Part shown: one piece after another, positions 5,102 to 15,346 of the stretch
Layout: every line of letters starts with the position of its first letter
How positions within the stretch are numbered: the stretch's first letter is position 1
Source: Nostoc sp. TCL26-01
Lineage (GTDB): Bacteria > Cyanobacteriota > Cyanobacteriia > Cyanobacteriales > Nostocaceae
Reading direction: 5' to 3'
Length of the DNA: 64,000 nt
Assembly: GCF_013393945.1 (NCBI RefSeq)
Contig: NZ_CP040297.1
Location: 5,918,809 to 5,982,808 of the forward strand
Program-made: the position numbers and the translations under genes
Notes under the pieces: model-generated
Told to the model about the DNA's origin: nothing
The model's input: the letters and a program-made list of their open reading frames with translations, nothing else
The model's database searches: none

Positions 5102-5285
5102 TAATTAATTTGTTTATTAATGTTAGGCAAATGAATTGCGTCATACTACCTAAGAATGTAAGTCCAATCATCAATCATTTTTTATTCTAATAATCGAAGC
5201 TGGCGATTATTAGCATTAACCTGCATTTGAAGACTGAAAGTATGTTGATTCAATTGCAAACAATTGCTAGCTCATGAAAACTAGC

Positions 5286-5506
5286 AATTTGGATTAGCTG
5301 TTCACAACGATGTTGTAGTTGCCTTTGGCACTCCAGAAAAACAAATCTTAATTGAGCTGGTATTTGCTCAGTTCAACAAAAACTCTACATACCTCATGGG
5401 TTGGTTTCGTGATTACCTCTGGGCTAACTCCGCTCAGTTAATTAACGGTTATAACCCCTACGGTACAAATAATTTGTCTGTCTGGGCTTGGATGTTCCTC
5501 TTTTGA
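5286..5506 (+). pseudogene. psaB: psaB relic (photosystem I P700 apoprotein A2), frameshifted and internally deleted
   Basis: The first part reads [17 protein letters not shown] in the frame starting at 5286. The second part, in the frame shifted by one base, reads [11 protein letters not shown] and then [31 protein letters not shown] and [13 protein letters not shown] before TGA at 5504-5506. From memory of PsaB, the QILIEPVFAQ and the FNESSTYLMGW segments lie more than a hundred residues apart, so a block between them is missing; the join falls at the shared residues AQF(N). One A is missing in the A-run near 5337-5341, which causes the frame change. PsaB should continue with GHLVWATGF but does not. 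There is no start codon. This is a dead fragment, not a working photosystem gene. Confidence 0.85.
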
Positions 5507-5886: not shown

Positions 5887-7134
5887 ATGAACATCAACAA
5901 CCCTCTGGAGACAATACAAACAAGTTTCCATACCGCTTTAGGCGCTGTGAGCGAATTTACCAGTCTACTGCAAGCACCCCAAAAACTCACAAATTACCTC
6001 ACCCAAATCCAGCAACAACCAGAGCAATGGTTCCAAGACTTAGCGGGAAAAGGGAAAAGTATGGAACAAGATATGACTAGTTTTTGCAAAAATTACTTTT
6101 GTGGAGGTAGCAAGCCATCAACATACCCTAAATATATAGAACGAGCAGATGGACAGGCGTTTAATCAACCCTACGAAATTAAAGGAACTAAAATGTATGG
6201 CTTTGTCGTTGAAGGTTCAATGGCGAAGTTGCAAGAGATATGTGATAAATATCTCAACGATCCCAATAACGGCGAGATTGAATATCGTCCAGCAACCAAC
6301 TATCTTATCCTGACGTTCAATAAGATAGATTCTTTAAGTTCTATCTATCCCCCCGACTATGACAAAGGAACCGTATTTGAAGAAGAAGCTATCTTTTGGA
6401 TGTTAACAGTAGTGGGTAGAAAAGTCGGGCCTTTCTTCATTGCCGATCGCCTAGCCTGGTTTATGCCATACTTATATGTCAATAATTCTCCCATCCTCGT
6501 TTCTGGTAGAGAAGTCTACGGTTTCTTTAAACAACTTGGCACATTTAAGATTCCCGATTTAGATCAACAACCAGATTTATTAACCGTAGACACCTTAGTA
6601 TTTAAAGAATTTTCCCCTACGAGCAAATCTCTAGATGCTCGTCTGTTGGAAGTTCAACGCCTCAGTACAGGAGAGCAACACCCAGATATCAAAACATGGG
6701 ACACATTTGAACAAGCCGCAAAAGCGATCGCTAGCTTATTATTTGACAATGATGAAATTACCATCCCTGGCTTACAATTACCCCTCAACCTCCTCGAATA
6801 TCTCTTAGGAAGAATCGTTCCCCTCGTTACTCTCAAACAAATCCGCGACGTAGAAAACAGTAAAAAGGCCTGTTATCAAGCACTGATTGAATCCCCCATG
6901 CAGCTACAAACCTTCTATGGTGGTAAACTCTTTGGCTTCAACAATTTTGGCGATCAATTTCAACTCAAAATCAATAATTTCGCTAGTCAACCCATCGTCC
7001 AAGATTTAGGACTAGGTCAAGGTTATGCCCCAGGTAGCGAATCAGTCAATATCCCCGTCAAACTCGGTTTTGTCCTAAATTTCGATTTCACACTCAAAGA
7101 TGGGAAAACTGTATGGGAAGCAAAGGGGAAGTAG
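5887..7134 (+). CDS. Acetoacetate-decarboxylase-like protein
   Basis: Encodes 415 residues. The N-terminal third is helical and unrecognised. From about residue 90 on it resembles the acetoacetate decarboxylase superfamily. The diagnostic stretch is GREVYGFFKQLGTFKIPD near residues 208-225, where the Lys after the aromatic pair sits where the Schiff-base lysine of the decarboxylase lies (GREL-x-GFPKKL in the classical enzyme). The second Lys of the classical KK pair is Gln here, so the lysine pKa environment, and perhaps the reaction, differ. The FAD oxidoreductase at 7277 follows in the same direction after 142 bases of repeats, which suggests a joint pathway on a lipid-like or polyketide-like substrate (inference). 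The stop codon TAG sits at the edge of the GTCAATA repeats. Confidence 0.6.
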   Translation: MNINNPLETIQTSFHTALGAVSEFTSLLQAPQKLTNYLTQIQQQPEQWFQDLAGKGKSMEQDMTSFCKNYFCGGSKPSTYPKYIERADGQAFNQPYEIKGTKMYGFVVEGSMAKLQEICDKYLNDPNNGEIEYRPATNYLILTFNKIDSLSSIYPPDYDKGTVFEEEAIFWMLTVVGRKVGPFFIADRLAWFMPYLYVNNSPILVSGREVYGFFKQLGTFKIPDLDQQPDLLTVDTLVFKEFSPTSKSLDARLLEVQRLSTGEQHPDIKTWDTFEQAAKAIASLLFDNDEITIPGLQLPLNLLEYLLGRIVPLVTLKQIRDVENSKKACYQALIESPMQLQTFYGGKLFGFNNFGDQFQLKINNFASQPIVQDLGLGQGYAPGSESVNIPVKLGFVLNFDFTLKDGKTVWEAKGK

Positions 7135-7269
7135 TCAATAGTCAATAGTCAATAGTCATTAGTCAATAGTCATTAGTCAATAGTCATTAGTGTTGAGTGG
7201 CTATTAATTATTCTCCCCTGCACCCCTGCACCCTGTCCCCTGTCCCCTGTCCCCTATCCCCTATCCCCT
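7134..7269. repeat. Heptamer array (GTCAATA/GTCATTA) and C-rich array
   Basis: 7134-7192 is built of GTCAATA and GTCATTA units. 7216-7269 is a second, C-rich low-complexity array (units such as CCCCTGT and CCCCTAT). Both fill the space between two co-directional genes. These are short tandem repeats typical of Nostoc-like genomes. No spacers, so not a CRISPR array. Confidence 0.85.
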
Positions 7270-7276
7270 CATTAAA

Positions 7277-9568
7277 ATGTCTCAACCCTATCAGCCAAAA
7301 AAGATCACTATTTTAGGTGGTGGTATGGCATCTTTAACCGCCGCTTATGAATTAACCAGTCAACCAGGATGGGAGAATCTCTATGAGATTACTATCTATC
7401 AAACAGGTTGGCGTTTAGGTGGTAAATGTGCAACTGGACGCAACGTCAAACCTGATGCACCTGATGCTGAACCAGATTATCGCATTGAAGAACATGGGCT
7501 ACATATCTTCTTTGGCTTCTACGAAAATGCCTTTCGACTACTCAAGCAATGCTACGACGAACTTGGTGGTAACGGGCCTTTCAGCACTATAGAAGACGCA
7601 TTTAAACCCCACAGTCTCATCGTCTTAGAAGAATACATCAATCAGAATTGGGTGAGTATCCCTTTTGATTTTCCGAGAAATTCTCTAGTTCCTTGGGAAG
7701 GTGGCGATGTTTCTTCTCTTTGGCAACATATTTGCACCACCATCAAATTTGTCATTCAGACTTACACAGAAATTGATAGTTACGAAAATCCCTCAACATC
7801 TCTTGCCAAACAAATAGCATTAGGCACAGAAGTCATAGAATTTTTATCAGATAGTAGTTTGTTGGAGTTTCCTAGTCAACTGATGCAGTTATTTCTCCAA
7901 GCACCTAGTCGTTGGGGTGGATGGCTCAACAGTATTAGTCAATCTATTGGCAACATTCTGCAAAACCTCGACTTCACCTCTGAAAGAGTGTTCTTAAATC
8001 TTGCCTATAACCTCGCTCAATCACTACCTGAAAATCCCAAAATTCAAAGACGTGAACATCATCAGTTAATTATCAAGCTAATCGATCGCTTTAAAGCACA
8101 TTTGACTAGTCAGCTAGACTCGAAAATTGGGCAAAATCCCAGCGTCTTTTGGCGTTTAACACTTATTGATCTCGCATTAGCCAACATTCGGGGTTTAATT
8201 GTTGATGAAGTGATTCTGTTTCGTTCCCTAGAGAGTTTAGATGAATATAACTATCGAGACTGGCTACGAAAACATGGCGCGAGGGAATCGAGTGTGAAAT
8301 CAGCCTTTATTCGCGTCTTATACGATTTAGTCTATGGCTTTCCCGAAGGTAATACCAACAAACCACAACTAGCCGCCGGCACAGCTATTCGTATCCTCAC
8401 CACCATTTTGTTTAAATATAATGGTGCAATCATGTGGAAAATGCAATCTGGGATGGCGGATGTCGTCATCACCCCATTGTATGAAGTGCTGAAGCGTCGC
8501 GGTGTAAAATTCCAATTCTTCCATGTTGCCCAGCAGTTACACTTGGATCAAGATCAACAAGCGATCGCTAGTATTACTTTAGCTCGTCAAGTCAATTTAA
8601 AACACCCACAGCAAGAATATCAACCCCTCATCTCAGTCAAAGACATTCGTTGCTGGCCTAATCAACCTCTCTATGATCAGATTGTCGATGAACAAGCCCA
8701 AAAACTCCAAGACAAAAAAATTGACTTGGAATCATATTGGACACCTTGGCAAAATGTAGAGCAAATTACCCTCACCAAAGGCGATGATTTTGATATCGTC
8801 CTTCTGGGAATTTCCATCGCCGCCTTGCCTTCTATTTGCAATGAATTTCTCCATGCTAAACAGAATCCCGTGCATCAAAAATGGCATGATATGTTCAAGC
8901 AAGTCAAGACTGTCACTACCCAAGGCGGACAAATATGGCTCAAACCTACTTTAGCTCAATTGGGATGGCAACAAACCAGCCCTGTACTAGGAGCTTATGT
9001 TGAACCCCTCGATGTCTATGCAGATATGAGCGAGTTACTAACACGAGAAAATTGGACTACTGAAGATTATCCTTATAATCTAGCTTATTTCACCGGCGTA
9101 ATTGCTGATCCCGGTATTCCCCCCCAGACAGAATACGATTTTCCCCATAAAGCCCAAAAGAAAGTAGAGCAACAAGCAATTAACTTTCTCAACAATTATA
9201 TTGGACACCTCTGGCCTGATGCGACTCAGCCTAACAATCCCCAGGGCTTGAACTGGGATTTACTCATTGATTCGCAAAACCGTCAGGGAGCAGAACGCTT
9301 TCAGGCTCAATACTGGCGAGTCAACATTAACCCATCAGAACGCTATGTATTATCCGTACCGGGAAGTACTAAGTATCGACTCAAAACCGATGAATCTGGG
9401 TTTAATAACCTTTACCTAACTGGCGACTGGATTAACAACGGTTACAACTCTGGTTGTGTAGAAGCAACAGTAATGTCTGCAATGCAAGCAACACGAGCTA
9501 TCCTAAACCAATGCTTTCAGATCAAATACGCTAAAGAAATTATTGGTGAGAGAGATTGTTGGTTATGA
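7277..9568 (+). CDS. Large FAD-dependent amine-oxidase/carotenoid-desaturase-like oxidoreductase
   Basis: A 763-residue flavoprotein. The N terminus has the dinucleotide-binding fold ITILGGGMASLTAAYELT. A WRLGGKCATGRN segment follows, as in phytoene and zeta-carotene desaturases and hydroxysqualene dehydroxylases, then EEHGLHIFFGFYENAF. The C terminus NNLYLTGDWINNG, GCVEATVMSAMQATRAIL is the second FAD-contact motif of that superfamily. It is about 250 residues longer than ordinary desaturases; the middle (about residues 150-400) is an extra helical region I do not recognise. It follows the acetoacetate-decarboxylase-like gene and probably works with it. The substrate is unknown. The start ATG at 7277 directly precedes SQPYQPKKITIL, so the start looks right. 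Confidence 0.75.
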   Translation: MSQPYQPKKITILGGGMASLTAAYELTSQPGWENLYEITIYQTGWRLGGKCATGRNVKPDAPDAEPDYRIEEHGLHIFFGFYENAFRLLKQCYDELGGNGPFSTIEDAFKPHSLIVLEEYINQNWVSIPFDFPRNSLVPWEGGDVSSLWQHICTTIKFVIQTYTEIDSYENPSTSLAKQIALGTEVIEFLSDSSLLEFPSQLMQLFLQAPSRWGGWLNSISQSIGNILQNLDFTSERVFLNLAYNLAQSLPENPKIQRREHHQLIIKLIDRFKAHLTSQLDSKIGQNPSVFWRLTLIDLALANIRGLIVDEVILFRSLESLDEYNYRDWLRKHGARESSVKSAFIRVLYDLVYGFPEGNTNKPQLAAGTAIRILTTILFKYNGAIMWKMQSGMADVVITPLYEVLKRRGVKFQFFHVAQQLHLDQDQQAIASITLARQVNLKHPQQEYQPLISVKDIRCWPNQPLYDQIVDEQAQKLQDKKIDLESYWTPWQNVEQITLTKGDDFDIVLLGISIAALPSICNEFLHAKQNPVHQKWHDMFKQVKTVTTQGGQIWLKPTLAQLGWQQTSPVLGAYVEPLDVYADMSELLTRENWTTEDYPYNLAYFTGVIADPGIPPQTEYDFPHKAQKKVEQQAINFLNNYIGHLWPDATQPNNPQGLNWDLLIDSQNRQGAERFQAQYWRVNINPSERYVLSVPGSTKYRLKTDESGFNNLYLTGDWINNGYNSGCVEATVMSAMQATRAILNQCFQIKYAKEIIGERDCWL

Positions 9569-9979
9569 GGGTATATTTAACTTAATTAGGGGTATTTTGA
9601 CTAACTCAACAAAAATTAGCATGATTTAGGTTGTTAAAGCCTATATTATCTTGTAAACCGATACATTTTTAAGGTTTGTTGGATCACAGACTTTAAAAAT
9701 GTATTTATTCTTCTCTAGGAAATCTATTTGGTTTTTAAATTAATGAAACTGGACATGGATGAAAATGCAAACTCACATACCACTACCAGAGACAGCAACT
9801 TGAATTAATCGGGTAAGGATTCAGGAGTCAGAATAGTTCAAATTTTCATATTTGATGAGTAAGCTAATATTCCTAAACCCCTGATTAATTCTGACTTCTG
9901 ACTCCTGGATGCTGAATTCTTACTTAATCGGGTTATCATTTCCAGATTTTGAAAATTGTTAAAAGTATTAATCTCACAA
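9569..9979. other. Intergenic region between the flavoprotein and kinase genes
   Basis: No gene seen. It holds a strong hairpin (9661-9704, listed separately) and a second imperfect inverted repeat near 9815-9910, whose core is AGGAGTCAGAA against TTCTGACTCCT. The direct repeat TTAATCGGGT(A/T) occurs near 9806 and 9924. The promoter of the kinase gene must lie here, but no clear -10/-35 pair was identified. Confidence 0.4.
9661..9704 (+). terminator. Hairpin downstream of the flavoprotein gene
   Basis: Perfect 12-bp arms, ATACATTTTTAA (9661-9672) and TTAAAAATGTAT (9693-9704), enclose a 20-base loop that can pair further (GGTTTG with CAGAC). TTATTCTTCT follows. The stem is AT-rich, so it could be a weak terminator or an mRNA 3'-end stabiliser for the gene pair at 5887-9568. 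Confidence 0.4.
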
Positions 9980-12900
9980 ATGATTACATTATCGAATTAT
10001 CAAATTATAGAATTAATTGACGAGGGCATCAAAACCAGTGTCTATCGAGCTAAGAGAAATCAAGATGGTCAACCAGTAGTTATTAAACTCTTAAAAACAG
10101 AATACCCTGATTTAAAAGATATAGCAGCTATCAAGCATGAATATGAGCTAATTAAAAATTTAGACATCCCAGGAGTTGTTCGAGCTTATAGTCTAGAAAA
10201 GCACAACAATGGATGTGCTATTATCTTAGAAGATTTTGTGGGAACTTCTCTTTATAAAATTATCCAAAATGGCAAAATTGAGTTACAAGATTTTCTCCAT
10301 ATCAGTATTCAACTTACCCAAGCATTAGGTGAACTACACCAACATTATATTATTCATAAAGACATCAAGCCACAAAATATCATTGTTAATTTAGAAACCT
10401 ATCAAGTTAAAATAATTGATTTTTCTATATCATCACTACTCATACAAGAAAAACCTAAACTTAGTAATCCTGATTTACTGGAAGGAACTCTAGCTTATAT
10501 ATCTCCAGAGCAAACAGGGAGAATGAATCGGTCAATTGATTACCGAACAGACTTCTATTCTTTGGGGGTAACTCTTTATCAAATGCTCACAGGCAAGTTA
10601 CCATTTCCAGCAAATGATCCAATGGAGTTAGTTCATTGTCATATTGCCAAACAACCTATCCCAGTAGATGAAATCGTTCCCGAAATCCCACCAGTAATTT
10701 CAGCAATTATTATGAAATTACTCAGCAAAACTGCTGAGGAAAGATATCAAAGTGCTTTTGGCATTAGAGCAGATTTAGAAAATTGTCTCAGTCAGTTAGA
10801 AAAAACTAATTCTATCATCGACTTTTCTATTGGTCAGCAAGATCAGTCTAGCCAATTACAAATTCCAGAAAAGTTATATGGAAGAGAAGCAGAAATAGAT
10901 ATTTTAATGACTGCTTTTTCCCAAATTAATCAAGGGCAGAAAGCATTAGCATTAGTGGCAGGTTACTCAGGTATTGGTAAATCAGCATTAGTCAATGAAA
11001 TTCATAAACCTGTAATCAAAAACAGAGGCTATTTTATTGCTGGTAAATATGAACAATTTCAGCGTAATATTCCCTATGCTTCCTTAATCCAAGCATTTCA
11101 AGAGTTAATCCAGCAGTTACTCACAGAAAGTGAATCACAATTAACTATTTGGCAAGAAAAACTTTTAGCAGCACTCAGTCCCAATGCTCAAATTATTATT
11201 GATGTCATTCCCGAACTAGAACTGATTATTGGTAAGCAACCAGAAGTACCACAACTAGCATCAGCAGAAGCACAAAATCGCTTTAACTTAGTTTTTCGGA
11301 AGTTTATCAATGTGTTTGCTCAAAAAGAGCATCCATTAGTTGTCTTTTTAGATGATTTACAATGGGCAGATTTAGCTTCATTAAAATTAATTCAATTATT
11401 AGCCACGGACACGGATATTCAACATTTATTACTCATCGGTGCTTATCGAGACAATGAAGTTGATACAAGTCATCCATTAATGCTAATTTTGCGAGAAATT
11501 GCCAAAAATAGTAGTCCTGTCAAGACTATTCACTGTCAAAATCTCAAAATTACTGATGTTTGTCAACTAGTGAGTGATACTCTAAAATCAAGTTTAGAAG
11601 ACTCTAAAGAATTAGCTAAATTAATTTTTCATAAAACTGCTGGCAATCCATTTTTTATCAATCAATTACTTAAATTCATTCATCAAGAAAATTTGCTGCT
11701 ATTTAACTTTGTCACTGGTCAATGGCAGTGGGATATTCAGCGTATCCAAATGCTAGGAATCACTGATAATGTTGTTGACTTAATGATAGGTAAAATCCAA
11801 AAGCTCAAAGAAACTACCCAAAATATTTTAAAAATAGCTGCTTGTATTGGTAATCGCTTTAACTTAAATATCCTCTCTTGCGTCAACGAAAAATCTCATA
11901 ATGATACAGCATTAGATATTTGGGAAGCACTACAAGCTGGGTTAATTATACCCTTAAGTGATAGCTACAAACTACCACTGTTATTAGAAGAAGTAGACAT
12001 CTTTGTCATTGATTATAAATTTCTCCACGATCGCGTGCAACAAGCCGCCTATGCCTTAATACCTGATGAGCAGAAACCGGAGATTCATTTACATATTGGT
12101 AGACTGCTACTAAAGAATATTGATGAGAGTTTACGAGAAGATAAAATCTTCGATATTGTCAACCAGTTAAATATTGGTACAGAACTAATTACTGCTCCAG
12201 AAGAACGATATCAACTAGCTGAATTAAATCTTCTTTCTGGACGTAAAGCTAAGGATTCTGCTGCTTACGAATCTGCTGTCAAGTTTCTCAAGCAAGGTCT
12301 AAATTTACTGGTAGATGATTGCTGGCAAAACCATTATGAATTAACTCTTGCCCTCTATGTAGAAACAGTAGAAGCAGAATATTTAACTACAAATTTTGAG
12401 CAAGCCGAACCATTATTTATCAGTGTCATTAATAACAGTAAAAATATTCTAGATACTGTTAAAGTATATGAGAAAAAGATTCAGTTTTATGTTGCTCAAA
12501 ATCGAATGCGCGAAGCATTAGATTTAGATTTACAAGTGCTAGAAATGCTGGGAGTTTCCTTATCACAAACGCCACCAGCAGAATTAACAATCGAAGAATT
12601 AGCTAATCTACCAGAAATGACTGATCCTCATAAGCTGGCAGCAATGAGAATATTGATGACAGCCATGCCTCCTGCTTATTTGGCAGATCCAGCACTTTTA
12701 CCATTAATTGCCTTTACAATGGTTAATCTATGTGTGCAGTATGGTAATTCATCTTTTGCCGCTTATGCCTATGGTTTTTATGGACTAATTTTATGTGGGG
12801 GACTGCAAAATATTGAGTCAGGCTATCGATTTGGTAAGTTATCTTTAGAGATTTTAGAGCAATTTGATACTAGAGAAATTAAATCTAAAGTATACGCCTT

Positions 12901-15346
12901 ATTTAATATTTTCGTGAGACATTGGAAAGAACATATTCAAACCACCATAGAACCGTTACAAGATGCTGTACAAAGTGGTCTAGATACCGGGGATATTGAG
13001 TATGTAGGTTATAATGGGTTACTAGTTTGCTGGCATCCTTTTTGGGTGGGAGAAAATTTAGATATTCTCGAACAAAGACTAGAACAATATATTAGTTTAG
13101 CATATAAGATTCAGCAAGAACATTTCACCATCTGTTTGTTAATTTTAAAACAGATGGTAACTGAACTCGTTCAAGGACAAGAGCATGAATATTACTTAGA
13201 GGGGGATAGTTTTAATGAATCAGTCATGCAGAGAATGGCAGACAATATTGCCGCTATTTTTTATGCTTATCTTGGCAAAACTATTTTAAGTTATTTCTTT
13301 AAAGATTATGCTCAAGCTATTAAAAATGCTCAATTAGCACAACAATATGAAGTGGCAGTTGGTGGCACTGTTTATTTATCTGCATATAAGTTTTACTATT
13401 CTCTGGCACTACTAGGTTTGTGTATAAATACAACTAATCAAGCTGATATCCAAACTTTTATAGATAAAGTTGCAGAAAATCAGCAACAATTACAAGAATG
13501 GGCAAATCACTCACCAGAAAACTATCAGCATAAATATGACTTGGTTGAGGCAGAAAAAGCCCGATTTTTAGGACAAGTATTAGTAGCAATGGAAAACTAT
13601 GATCTAGCAATTAAAGGCGCTCACAATTATGGATATATTCATGAAGAAGCACTAGCTTATGAATGTGCGGCAGAATTTTATTTTCATCTGGGAAGACATG
13701 AATTTGCATCCCTATATATGACAAAAGCTCACTATGGTTATCGCCATTGGGGAGCAAATGCTAAGGTGAAAGATTTAGAGTTAAAATATCCCGAATTAAT
13801 TGCTAAAGTCTCCACTCAATATCAAACAGGATTTACAAATACTAATATTACTGCCTCTACGGCTAATGAAAAGTCAAGTGGACTAGATTTAATTACAGTG
13901 ATTAAAGGTTCACAAGCCTTATCAGAAGTAATTTTACTAGAAAACCTACTAGAAAAATTAATGACAATTTTGATCGAGAATGCTGGCGCTCAAACTGGAA
14001 TTCTCCTACTAGAAAAAGGAGGAAAATTATTTATTGAAGCTAAAGCTAGTGTAGAGCAAGAAGATTTAACCGTTGGACAATCAATCCCTTTAGAAAATAG
14101 TCAACAGTTGCCGATCTCGGTAATTAATTATGTTACAAGAACCAAGAAAGATGTAGTTTTATCTGATGCTAAAAACGAGGGAGGATTTACGATAGATCCC
14201 TATATTATTGACAATCAAGTTAAATCACTCATGTGTACTTCGATCATTAATCAAGGTAAATTGATTGGGTTAGTTTATTTAGAAAATAATTTAACAGTGG
14301 GGGCATTTACTGCCGATAGAATACAAATACTCAAAATTCTATCTTCGCAGGCAGCGATTTCCATAGAGAATGCCAAGCTTTACGCCAACTTAGAAGAAAA
14401 AATAGAAGAGAGAACCAGGGAATTAAATGAAAAAAATGTCAGATTAAAGCAAACACTGGCTGAATTAAAACTAACTCAAACACAATTAATTCAAACCGAA
14501 AAAATGTCTAGCTTAGGGCAAATGGTTGCAGGAATCGCTCATGAGATTAATAACCCCGTCAGCTTTATTCATGGTAACTTGGGACACATTGATAATTACA
14601 CCCAAGATTTAGTTGGGTTGATTAATATTTATCAAGATATCTATCCTGAATTAGCACCAGAAATTGCCGAGTTTTTAGAAGATATTGATATTGATTTTAT
14701 TAAAGAAGATATGCCGAAAATTTTATCTTCAATGAAAGTCGGCACGCAGCGCATTCGGGAAATTGTCTTAACATTACGGAATTTCTCTCGTTTAGACGAA
14801 GCTGACATGAAACCTGTTAACATTCATGAGGGCATTGAGAGTACCTTACTAATTTTGCAAAGCCGTCTGCAAGTTAAACCTAGTAAACCAGCAATTGAGA
14901 TTATCAAAAATTACGGTAATTTGCCAAAAGTGGAATGTTATGCTGGGCAATTAAATCAAGTATTTATGAATATTTTAAACAATGCCATTGATGCAGTAGA
15001 AAAGTTACATCAGGACAGAAATACTCAAGCAACTAATAACAATTCTAGTGCGATCGCTATTCGTACTCAAGTAGTCAACCCCGATTTTGTCGCCATTGCC
15101 ATTAAGGACAATGGTGTCGGCATGAGTGATAGTGTCAAACAAAGAATATTTGATCCTTTTTTCACCACTAAACCCATCGGACAAGGCACTGGTTTAGGAT
15201 TATCAATCACCTATCAAATCATTGTAGACAAACATCACGGGACAATAGAGTGCATTTCTCAACCTGGAGAAGGGGCAGAGTTTATCATTCAAATTCCCTG
15301 CCACCAAAAACGCAGTTTTCAAAGCCTGACAGCATCTCAGGTTTAG
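9980..15346 (+). CDS. Multidomain Ser/Thr kinase-ATPase-GAF-histidine kinase (HstK type)
   Basis: About 1,788 residues. Order: a Ser/Thr kinase domain (residues about 1-270, HKDIKPQNIIVN catalytic loop, then FSISSLL where DFG would be), an AAA/STAND-like ATPase with Walker A GYSGIGKSALVNE and Walker B VVFLDDLQWAD, a long TPR-like helical region, a GAF domain (about 1300-1460), and a histidine kinase core (GIAHEINNPVSF with the phospho-His, then N, G1 and G2 boxes such as DNGVGMSD and GQGTGLGLS). This matches the double kinases described in Anabaena. The kinase-domain DFG is DFS (KIIDFSISS), a mild departure. The frame can be extended to a TTG at 9956, but ATG 9980 starts MITLSNYQIIELIDEG, the usual beginning of such kinases, so I prefer it. 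No receiver domain and no membrane segment are visible. Confidence 0.9.
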   Translation: MITLSNYQIIELIDEGIKTSVYRAKRNQDGQPVVIKLLKTEYPDLKDIAAIKHEYELIKNLDIPGVVRAYSLEKHNNGCAIILEDFVGTSLYKIIQNGKIELQDFLHISIQLTQALGELHQHYIIHKDIKPQNIIVNLETYQVKIIDFSISSLLIQEKPKLSNPDLLEGTLAYISPEQTGRMNRSIDYRTDFYSLGVTLYQMLTGKLPFPANDPMELVHCHIAKQPIPVDEIVPEIPPVISAIIMKLLSKTAEERYQSAFGIRADLENCLSQLEKTNSIIDFSIGQQDQSSQLQIPEKLYGREAEIDILMTAFSQINQGQKALALVAGYSGIGKSALVNEIHKPVIKNRGYFIAGKYEQFQRNIPYASLIQAFQELIQQLLTESESQLTIWQEKLLAALSPNAQIIIDVIPELELIIGKQPEVPQLASAEAQNRFNLVFRKFINVFAQKEHPLVVFLDDLQWADLASLKLIQLLATDTDIQHLLLIGAYRDNEVDTSHPLMLILREIAKNSSPVKTIHCQNLKITDVCQLVSDTLKSSLEDSKELAKLIFHKTAGNPFFINQLLKFIHQENLLLFNFVTGQWQWDIQRIQMLGITDNVVDLMIGKIQKLKETTQNILKIAACIGNRFNLNILSCVNEKSHNDTALDIWEALQAGLIIPLSDSYKLPLLLEEVDIFVIDYKFLHDRVQQAAYALIPDEQKPEIHLHIGRLLLKNIDESLREDKIFDIVNQLNIGTELITAPEERYQLAELNLLSGRKAKDSAAYESAVKFLKQGLNLLVDDCWQNHYELTLALYVETVEAEYLTTNFEQAEPLFISVINNSKNILDTVKVYEKKIQFYVAQNRMREALDLDLQVLEMLGVSLSQTPPAELTIEELANLPEMTDPHKLAAMRILMTAMPPAYLADPALLPLIAFTMVNLCVQYGNSSFAAYAYGFYGLILCGGLQNIESGYRFGKLSLEILEQFDTREIKSKVYALFNIFVRHWKEHIQTTIEPLQDAVQSGLDTGDIEYVGYNGLLVCWHPFWVGENLDILEQRLEQYISLAYKIQQEHFTICLLILKQMVTELVQGQEHEYYLEGDSFNESVMQRMADNIAAIFYAYLGKTILSYFFKDYAQAIKNAQLAQQYEVAVGGTVYLSAYKFYYSLALLGLCINTTNQADIQTFIDKVAENQQQLQEWANHSPENYQHKYDLVEAEKARFLGQVLVAMENYDLAIKGAHNYGYIHEEALAYECAAEFYFHLGRHEFASLYMTKAHYGYRHWGANAKVKDLELKYPELIAKVSTQYQTGFTNTNITASTANEKSSGLDLITVIKGSQALSEVILLENLLEKLMTILIENAGAQTGILLLEKGGKLFIEAKASVEQEDLTVGQSIPLENSQQLPISVINYVTRTKKDVVLSDAKNEGGFTIDPYIIDNQVKSLMCTSIINQGKLIGLVYLENNLTVGAFTADRIQILKILSSQAAISIENAKLYANLEEKIEERTRELNEKNVRLKQTLAELKLTQTQLIQTEKMSSLGQMVAGIAHEINNPVSFIHGNLGHIDNYTQDLVGLINIYQDIYPELAPEIAEFLEDIDIDFIKEDMPKILSSMKVGTQRIREIVLTLRNFSRLDEADMKPVNIHEGIESTLLILQSRLQVKPSKPAIEIIKNYGNLPKVECYAGQLNQVFMNILNNAIDAVEKLHQDRNTQATNNNSSAIAIRTQVVNPDFVAIAIKDNGVGMSDSVKQRIFDPFFTTKPIGQGTGLGLSITYQIIVDKHHGTIECISQPGEGAEFIIQIPCHQKRSFQSLTASQV

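Follow-up and report, generated by a model that had tools for sequence, protein, structure and literature searches.

The locus and its three genes

The stretch of DNA analysed here, referred to as the window, comprises 64,000 nucleotides of Nostoc sp. TCL26-01 (contig NZ_CP040297.1, positions 5,918,809 to 5,982,808). Its forward strand carries a gene for an acetoacetate decarboxylase (ADC)-like protein of 415 residues (5887–7134), followed by genes for an oversized flavoprotein of 763 residues, named FLAV (7277–9568), and for a giant dual kinase of 1788 residues, named GK (9980–15346). The FLAV and ADC-like genes form a conserved unit, and the three-part FLAV-ADC-GK module is a more important finding than the pair alone. 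The gap between the ADC-like and FLAV genes (7135–7270) was seen by eye to be filled by short repeats, AGTCAATAGTCATT-type and then CCCCTGTCCCCT-type.

In ADCs, the Schiff-base lysine lies within a GRE..G..KK stretch, and the second lysine of this stretch tunes the first. Judged by its sequence, the open reading frame (ORF) at 5887–7134 is a diverged ADC-like protein. The score against PF06314, the Pfam model of acetoacetate decarboxylase, was 18.7 bits, below the curated cut-off of 29.8; this cut-off was passed by two distant relatives, from Azospirillum (41.3 bits) and from a Qingshengfaniella fusion (31.3 bits), while the Pfam scan gave no match for the relative at locus L072. A profile built from 12 family members matched the solved ADCs 3bgt (E 0.00093) and 3c8w (E 0.038). 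The family stretch GREVYGFFKQ was aligned by this profile to GRELWGFPKK of 3bgt, which places K215, the presumed Schiff-base residue, at the first lysine and Q216 at the second (codons at 6529–6534, forward strand). Position 215 was lysine in all 12 aligned relatives, and G207, R208, G212 and K215 made up four of the nine invariant columns. Residue 216 read Q, Q, E, Q, E, E, Q, E, L, S, Y and R across the same 12 rows and was never lysine. The putative active-site assignments given here come from profile alignment.

Cyanobacteria also possess a separate, short ADC-like family of ∼210–250 residues, which aligned with the family of the window over 219 columns (95.1% probability). It was the best match in 20 of 31 matched genomes, and these lack FLAV. 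Its lysine pair read K-E in 16 of the 19 loci examined and K-K in one, with the motif absent in the remaining two.

FLAV combines an FAD fold of the HpnE and zeta-carotene-desaturase kind with a large central insertion. Pfam placed NAD_binding_8 at residues 12–91 (43.1 bits) and the C-terminus of Amino_oxidase at 674–743. All equivalog scores were far below their cut-offs: 44.2 against 283 bits for HpnE, 45.0 against 622 for zeta-carotene desaturase and 31.8 against 569 for phytoene desaturase. The HpnE and zeta-carotene-desaturase models, which span 430 and 474 positions and leave FLAV ∼290–330 residues longer, were matched by 12 of 12 FLAV family members at E ≤0.001. Intact, unfused relatives are ∼720–790 residues long, and the extra length is therefore a family trait. 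Among solved structures, the FLAV profile came closest to a phytoene desaturase (5mog, E 2.8e-5), with the match confined to the N-terminal part.

Conservation of the FLAV and ADC-like pair

The cyanobacterial survey covered a set of 386 genomes, a set of 388 genomes of the order and a separate scan of contigs. The FLAV profile matched 11 of the 386 genomes, and strong ADC-like matches were obtained in exactly those 11, one of which (G352) retains only remnants of both genes, while in another (G167) the ADC-like frame is broken into two. FLAV was further found in 19 of the 388 genomes, so that both surveys together gave 20 different genomes. The contig scan added 11 contigs with FLAV, three of them identical to contigs of the surveyed genomes, which brings the total to 28 cyanobacterial assemblies, a number that may include sister strains. 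These counts exclude weak FLAV matches (107 of 118 genomes, best E 2.7e-8 to 1e-3), which fell on short stretches of unrelated FAD-protein hits, and weak ADC-like matches (23 of 34 genomes, E 1.3e-6 to 9.4e-4), all of which except that in G055 covered the N-terminal part only and correspond to the small protein family described below.

The two genes have also been fused in both orders. At L149 and L150 they form a single ORF in the order ADC-FLAV, and in Qingshengfaniella a single ORF in the order FLAV-ADC. The two frames overlap by four bases in all eight Azospirillum records, and in G302 the genes are separated by ∼2.7 kb. Outside the cyanobacteria, FLAV was detected in 11 of 72,556 plasmid records, and the pair is present again in Azospirillum and Catenovulum. 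Two Azospirillum brasilense strains, Sp 7 and Cd, carry it together with a GK homologue on plasmid p3. Purifying selection was apparent on both genes in comparison with L032, the nonsynonymous and synonymous rates (dN, dS) being 0.075 and 0.49 for the ADC-like gene and 0.086 and 0.56 for FLAV. This selection and the conservation across phyla rule out chance ORFs or pseudogenes. A phage or viral origin was also rejected, as relatives of FLAV were found neither in phages nor in viral contigs.

An earlier, sequence-only reading of the window had proposed a decarboxylase-like protein that keeps the Schiff-base lysine and changes the second lysine to glutamine, next to a carotenoid-desaturase-like flavoprotein with an extra block of 250 residues. 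Both descriptions hold, and the neighbourhood survey bore out the conservation of the pair. The loss of the second lysine is not a distinctive trait, given the K-E pair that prevails in the short ADC-like family. The reading also described a two-gene unit; the pair stands, and a third conserved gene, GK, had been overlooked.

A giant kinase adjoining the pair

GK is a single chain in which a Ser/Thr kinase (STK) and an AAA_16 ATPase are combined with GAF, HisKA and HATPase_c domains. The ORF as listed begins at TTG 9956; most orthologues align from ATG 9980, which was taken as the start. Of the 28 cyanobacterial assemblies, 26 have a GK homologue (42–85% identical) next to the pair or to what remains of it. 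Of the two others, G648 has the pair at a contig end, and in G302 the place of GK is taken by a cyclase-AAA_16 protein.

This association extends beyond the cyanobacteria, as an AAA_16 kinase or cyclase adjoins FLAV in 10 of the 11 plasmid records. The GK homologue of Azospirillum (1,919–1,927 residues, ∼35% identical, divergently oriented) was present in all eight records, with the domains checked in one. Rufibacter carries a kinase-AAA_16-GAF-cyclase protein beside FLAV, and the Qingshengfaniella fusion adjoins a cyclase-AAA_16 protein, itself followed by a Crp/Fnr regulator. Among the same 72,556 plasmid records, GK homologues at E ≤1e-100 occurred in 220. A gene for a response regulator-adenylate/guanylate cyclase was also observed immediately upstream of the ADC-FLAV fusion (L149:1637–2758), which is another cyclase near the module.

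Exchange of partners within the module

A tree of GK homologues was built from 31 of 38 rows, of which 18 belong to triads of FLAV, ADC-like and GK genes and 13 do not; six near-copies and the incomplete L139 were dropped, and some further triad kinases were left out. The triad label changes at least four times on this tree. A single-clade origin of the triad kinases is thereby rejected, within a small sampling of non-triad kinases (eight from G000 and the rest from five plasmid records) and with the Azospirillum and Rufibacter rows on long branches of unsure placement. An old link to GK followed by later losses may also account for the pattern of labels.

The FLAV and GK trees conflict at L148, the clearest case, and at L075. 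The FLAV of L148 groups with those of Nostoc and L075 (100/99), and its GK with those of L149, L150 and L076 (100/99). L074 and L073 share 81.5% identity in the ADC-like protein and 83.9% in GK, while their FLAVs are 47.6% identical; going by these values, the FLAV of L074 has been replaced by a distant homologue, with the ADC-like protein and GK retained. Triad kinases of several clades, conflicting trees and the exchanged FLAV of L074 indicate that the link outlived the replacement of its parts or else arose repeatedly; neighbourhood inertia alone is a poor account of the linkage.

Hints of a possible hydrophobic substrate

Between the ADC-like gene and the replaced FLAV of L074 lies a divergent squalene/phytoene-synthase-like (SQS_PSY) gene (L074:7759–8814; PF00494, 99.9 bits; motifs DNIED and DFPED). 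The neighbours of the Azospirillum pair include genes for a FadL/TodX-like porin and for another homologue of FLAV. These genes hint at a substrate that would be hydrophobic and might be an isoprenoid.

The N-terminal ∼80 residues of the ADC-like protein (5887–6126, forward strand) form a domain shared with a separate cyanobacterial family of 115–136 residues. A hidden Markov model (HMM) of 13 of these small proteins scored the ADC-like protein of the window at 53.3 bits, against 10.3 bits for the best of 2400 decoys with shuffled N-termini. The domain was detected in six of the 12 ADC-like proteins tested, all six among the 10 cyanobacterial ones, and not in those of L075, L076, L149, L072, L082 and L083. 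The small family itself was observed at L053, L054, L056–L060, L063, L065, L067 and L069–L071, its N-terminal part being the one reused in the ADC-like protein. Neither Pfam (four members) nor NCBIfam (two members) gave an assignment above cut-off, and the sub-threshold matches were to phasin-related and DUF6825 models. From the weak phasin-related matches one might guess that the domain binds lipid surfaces or targets lipid droplets.

Upstream of the pair, at window positions 5285–5500 of the forward strand, lies a psaB remnant whose reading frame joins two separate PsaB stretches (residues ∼436–486 and ∼611–656 of chain 6tcl_B1), as would follow from the loss of an internal segment.

Interpretation of the module

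We consider, with moderate confidence, that FLAV and the ADC-like protein are an enzyme couple which acts together with a large signalling protein of its own in a lipid or isoprenoid module. The conservation of the pair, its fusions, the conserved lysine and the linkage to AAA_16 signalling proteins were observed directly; the activity, the isoprenoid substrate, the tethering and the direction of signalling are what we infer from them. The most likely role of FLAV, as an FAD enzyme of the phytoene desaturase, zeta-carotene desaturase (ZDS) or HpnE type, is to oxidise or rearrange a long, hydrophobic substrate, either an isoprenoid or a lipid. Its ADC-like partner would most likely use K215 to form a Schiff base with a carbonyl group on the substrate or product of FLAV. 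The ADC-type step could be a decarboxylation, a retro-aldol reaction, a dehydration or an isomerisation, a choice left wide because the second active-site lysine is missing. The N-terminal domain, in the many cyanobacterial members that have it, may hold the ADC-like protein at a membrane or at a lipid droplet, and the adjoining giant AAA_16 kinase, or elsewhere the AAA_16-nucleotide cyclase, would sense the product or regulate the couple. The sequence-only reading had suggested a route acting on a lipid or terpenoid beta-keto acid. Its terpenoid part is upheld indirectly, by the HpnE and ZDS matches and by the SQS_PSY gene of L074; the beta-keto acid found no support.

Several observations weigh against this proposal. 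In Rufibacter, FLAV has its GK-type neighbour but an ADC-like gene was not found, and in G352 GK is intact while FLAV and the ADC-like gene have both decayed. No relative of GK was found within 12 kb of the Catenovulum pair. GK is encoded on the opposite strand in L075, and a terminator-like stem precedes the GK gene in the window (9660–9705, forward strand; a consensus match only, in a region with five terminator-like sites against 3.4 expected from shuffles); a single operon is therefore not shown. G000 encodes nine near-full-length GKs, the window GK counted, which weakens any single adjacency. The SQS_PSY gene was seen at no other locus examined, a good match to it was present in one of 30 genomes searched, and the 102 plasmid records that hold a relative all come from genera other than those with FLAV. 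The AlphaFold 2 models of FLAV and of the ADC-like protein, computed from 12 rows 73–86% identical to the window proteins, were too poor to use (mean predicted local distance difference test scores of 37 and 34.3).

Some of these points would suit an ordinary accessory couple that modifies carotenoids or terpenoids, with GK merely controlling its expression or adjoining it through sheer abundance. The similarity of all 12 FLAVs to HpnE and ZDS, the SQS_PSY gene, the nine kinases of G000 and the Catenovulum pair speak for this account. It is harder to reconcile with an adjoining GK in nearly every cyanobacterial assembly, an AAA_16 signaller in all but one of the plasmid records and kinases drawn from different clades; the crude chance that a gene of G000 adjoins a full-length GK is ∼0.3% per gene, assuming nine GKs and 1.1 kb per gene. 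We regard this account as possible, though unlikely. In another account, the ADC fold would serve as a hydrophobic binder, and the ADC-like protein could be a non-enzymatic partner that binds a ligand or presents the substrate to FLAV, anchored in the membrane by its N-terminal domain. The second lysine lost from every aligned relative, the PF06314 score below cut-off and the Rufibacter FLAV without an ADC-like gene agree with such a role; a pure binder, however, would need no lysine, and G207, R208, G212 and K215 are all invariant. A non-enzymatic partner thus appears quite improbable to us.

The enzyme couple with its dedicated signalling protein admits a bolder version, in which FLAV and the ADC-like protein would together synthesise a signal derived from an isoprenoid or lipid, with the adjoining AAA_16 kinase or cyclase as its dedicated receptor. 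This would be an undescribed, modular synthase-receptor system of Cyanobacteria, Pseudomonadota and Bacteroidota with interchangeable outputs, histidine kinase or nucleotide cyclase; we offer it as a speculation that is, on balance, doubtful. Giant STK-AAA_16-GAF kinases and cyclases are common, and to our knowledge few of their ligands have been identified. An enzyme couple linked to them in several phyla would supply a concrete candidate for such a ligand and, in Azospirillum brasilense, a tractable system to study. It would also place the ADC fold and desaturase-type flavoenzymes in a role new to them.

Comparison with known systems

No description of the three-part FLAV-ADC-GK module was found in the open-access papers searched. 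The ADC-like family resembles the ADC superfamily of PF06314 (3bgt, 3c8w, 4zbo) in the GRE..G..K stretch, with the first lysine in register. It differs in having Q, E, L, S, Y or R for the second lysine, in the N-terminal domain of many cyanobacterial members and in its position beside, or fused to, a flavoprotein. FLAV shares the FAD-binding ends of the fold with HpnE and the zeta-carotene and phytoene desaturases, but is ∼300 residues longer and scores far under their equivalog cut-offs.

An NXD1 homologue, all0736, annotated as an 'acetoacetate decarboxylase family protein', has been reported in lipid droplets of an Anabaena PCC 7120 derivative, according to the consulted part of that work (PMC12923008). 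Both this protein and that of the window are ADC-like, and the short cyanobacterial family, likewise mostly without the second lysine, might be of the NXD1 type, which is a guess. That short family differs from the family of the window in its smaller size, its lack of the N-terminal domain and its occurrence in genomes without FLAV.

GK has the same STK, GAF, HisKA and HATPase_c set as the cyanobacterial dual kinases known as cbSTKIII or HstK, which carry these domains in one chain and of which three respond in expression to nitrogen source or iron, as described in the consulted part of that account (PMC2176072). GK differs in its genetic tie to FLAV and the ADC-like gene, no such pair appearing in that part of the account, and in having homologues, or AAA_16 counterparts elsewhere, that bear a nucleotide cyclase instead. 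In a synthase-receptor signalling pair the synthase gene adjoins that of its sensor; the FLAV and ADC-like genes do adjoin the GK gene, and the module would be such a pair if FLAV and the ADC-like protein made a ligand that changes the output of GK.

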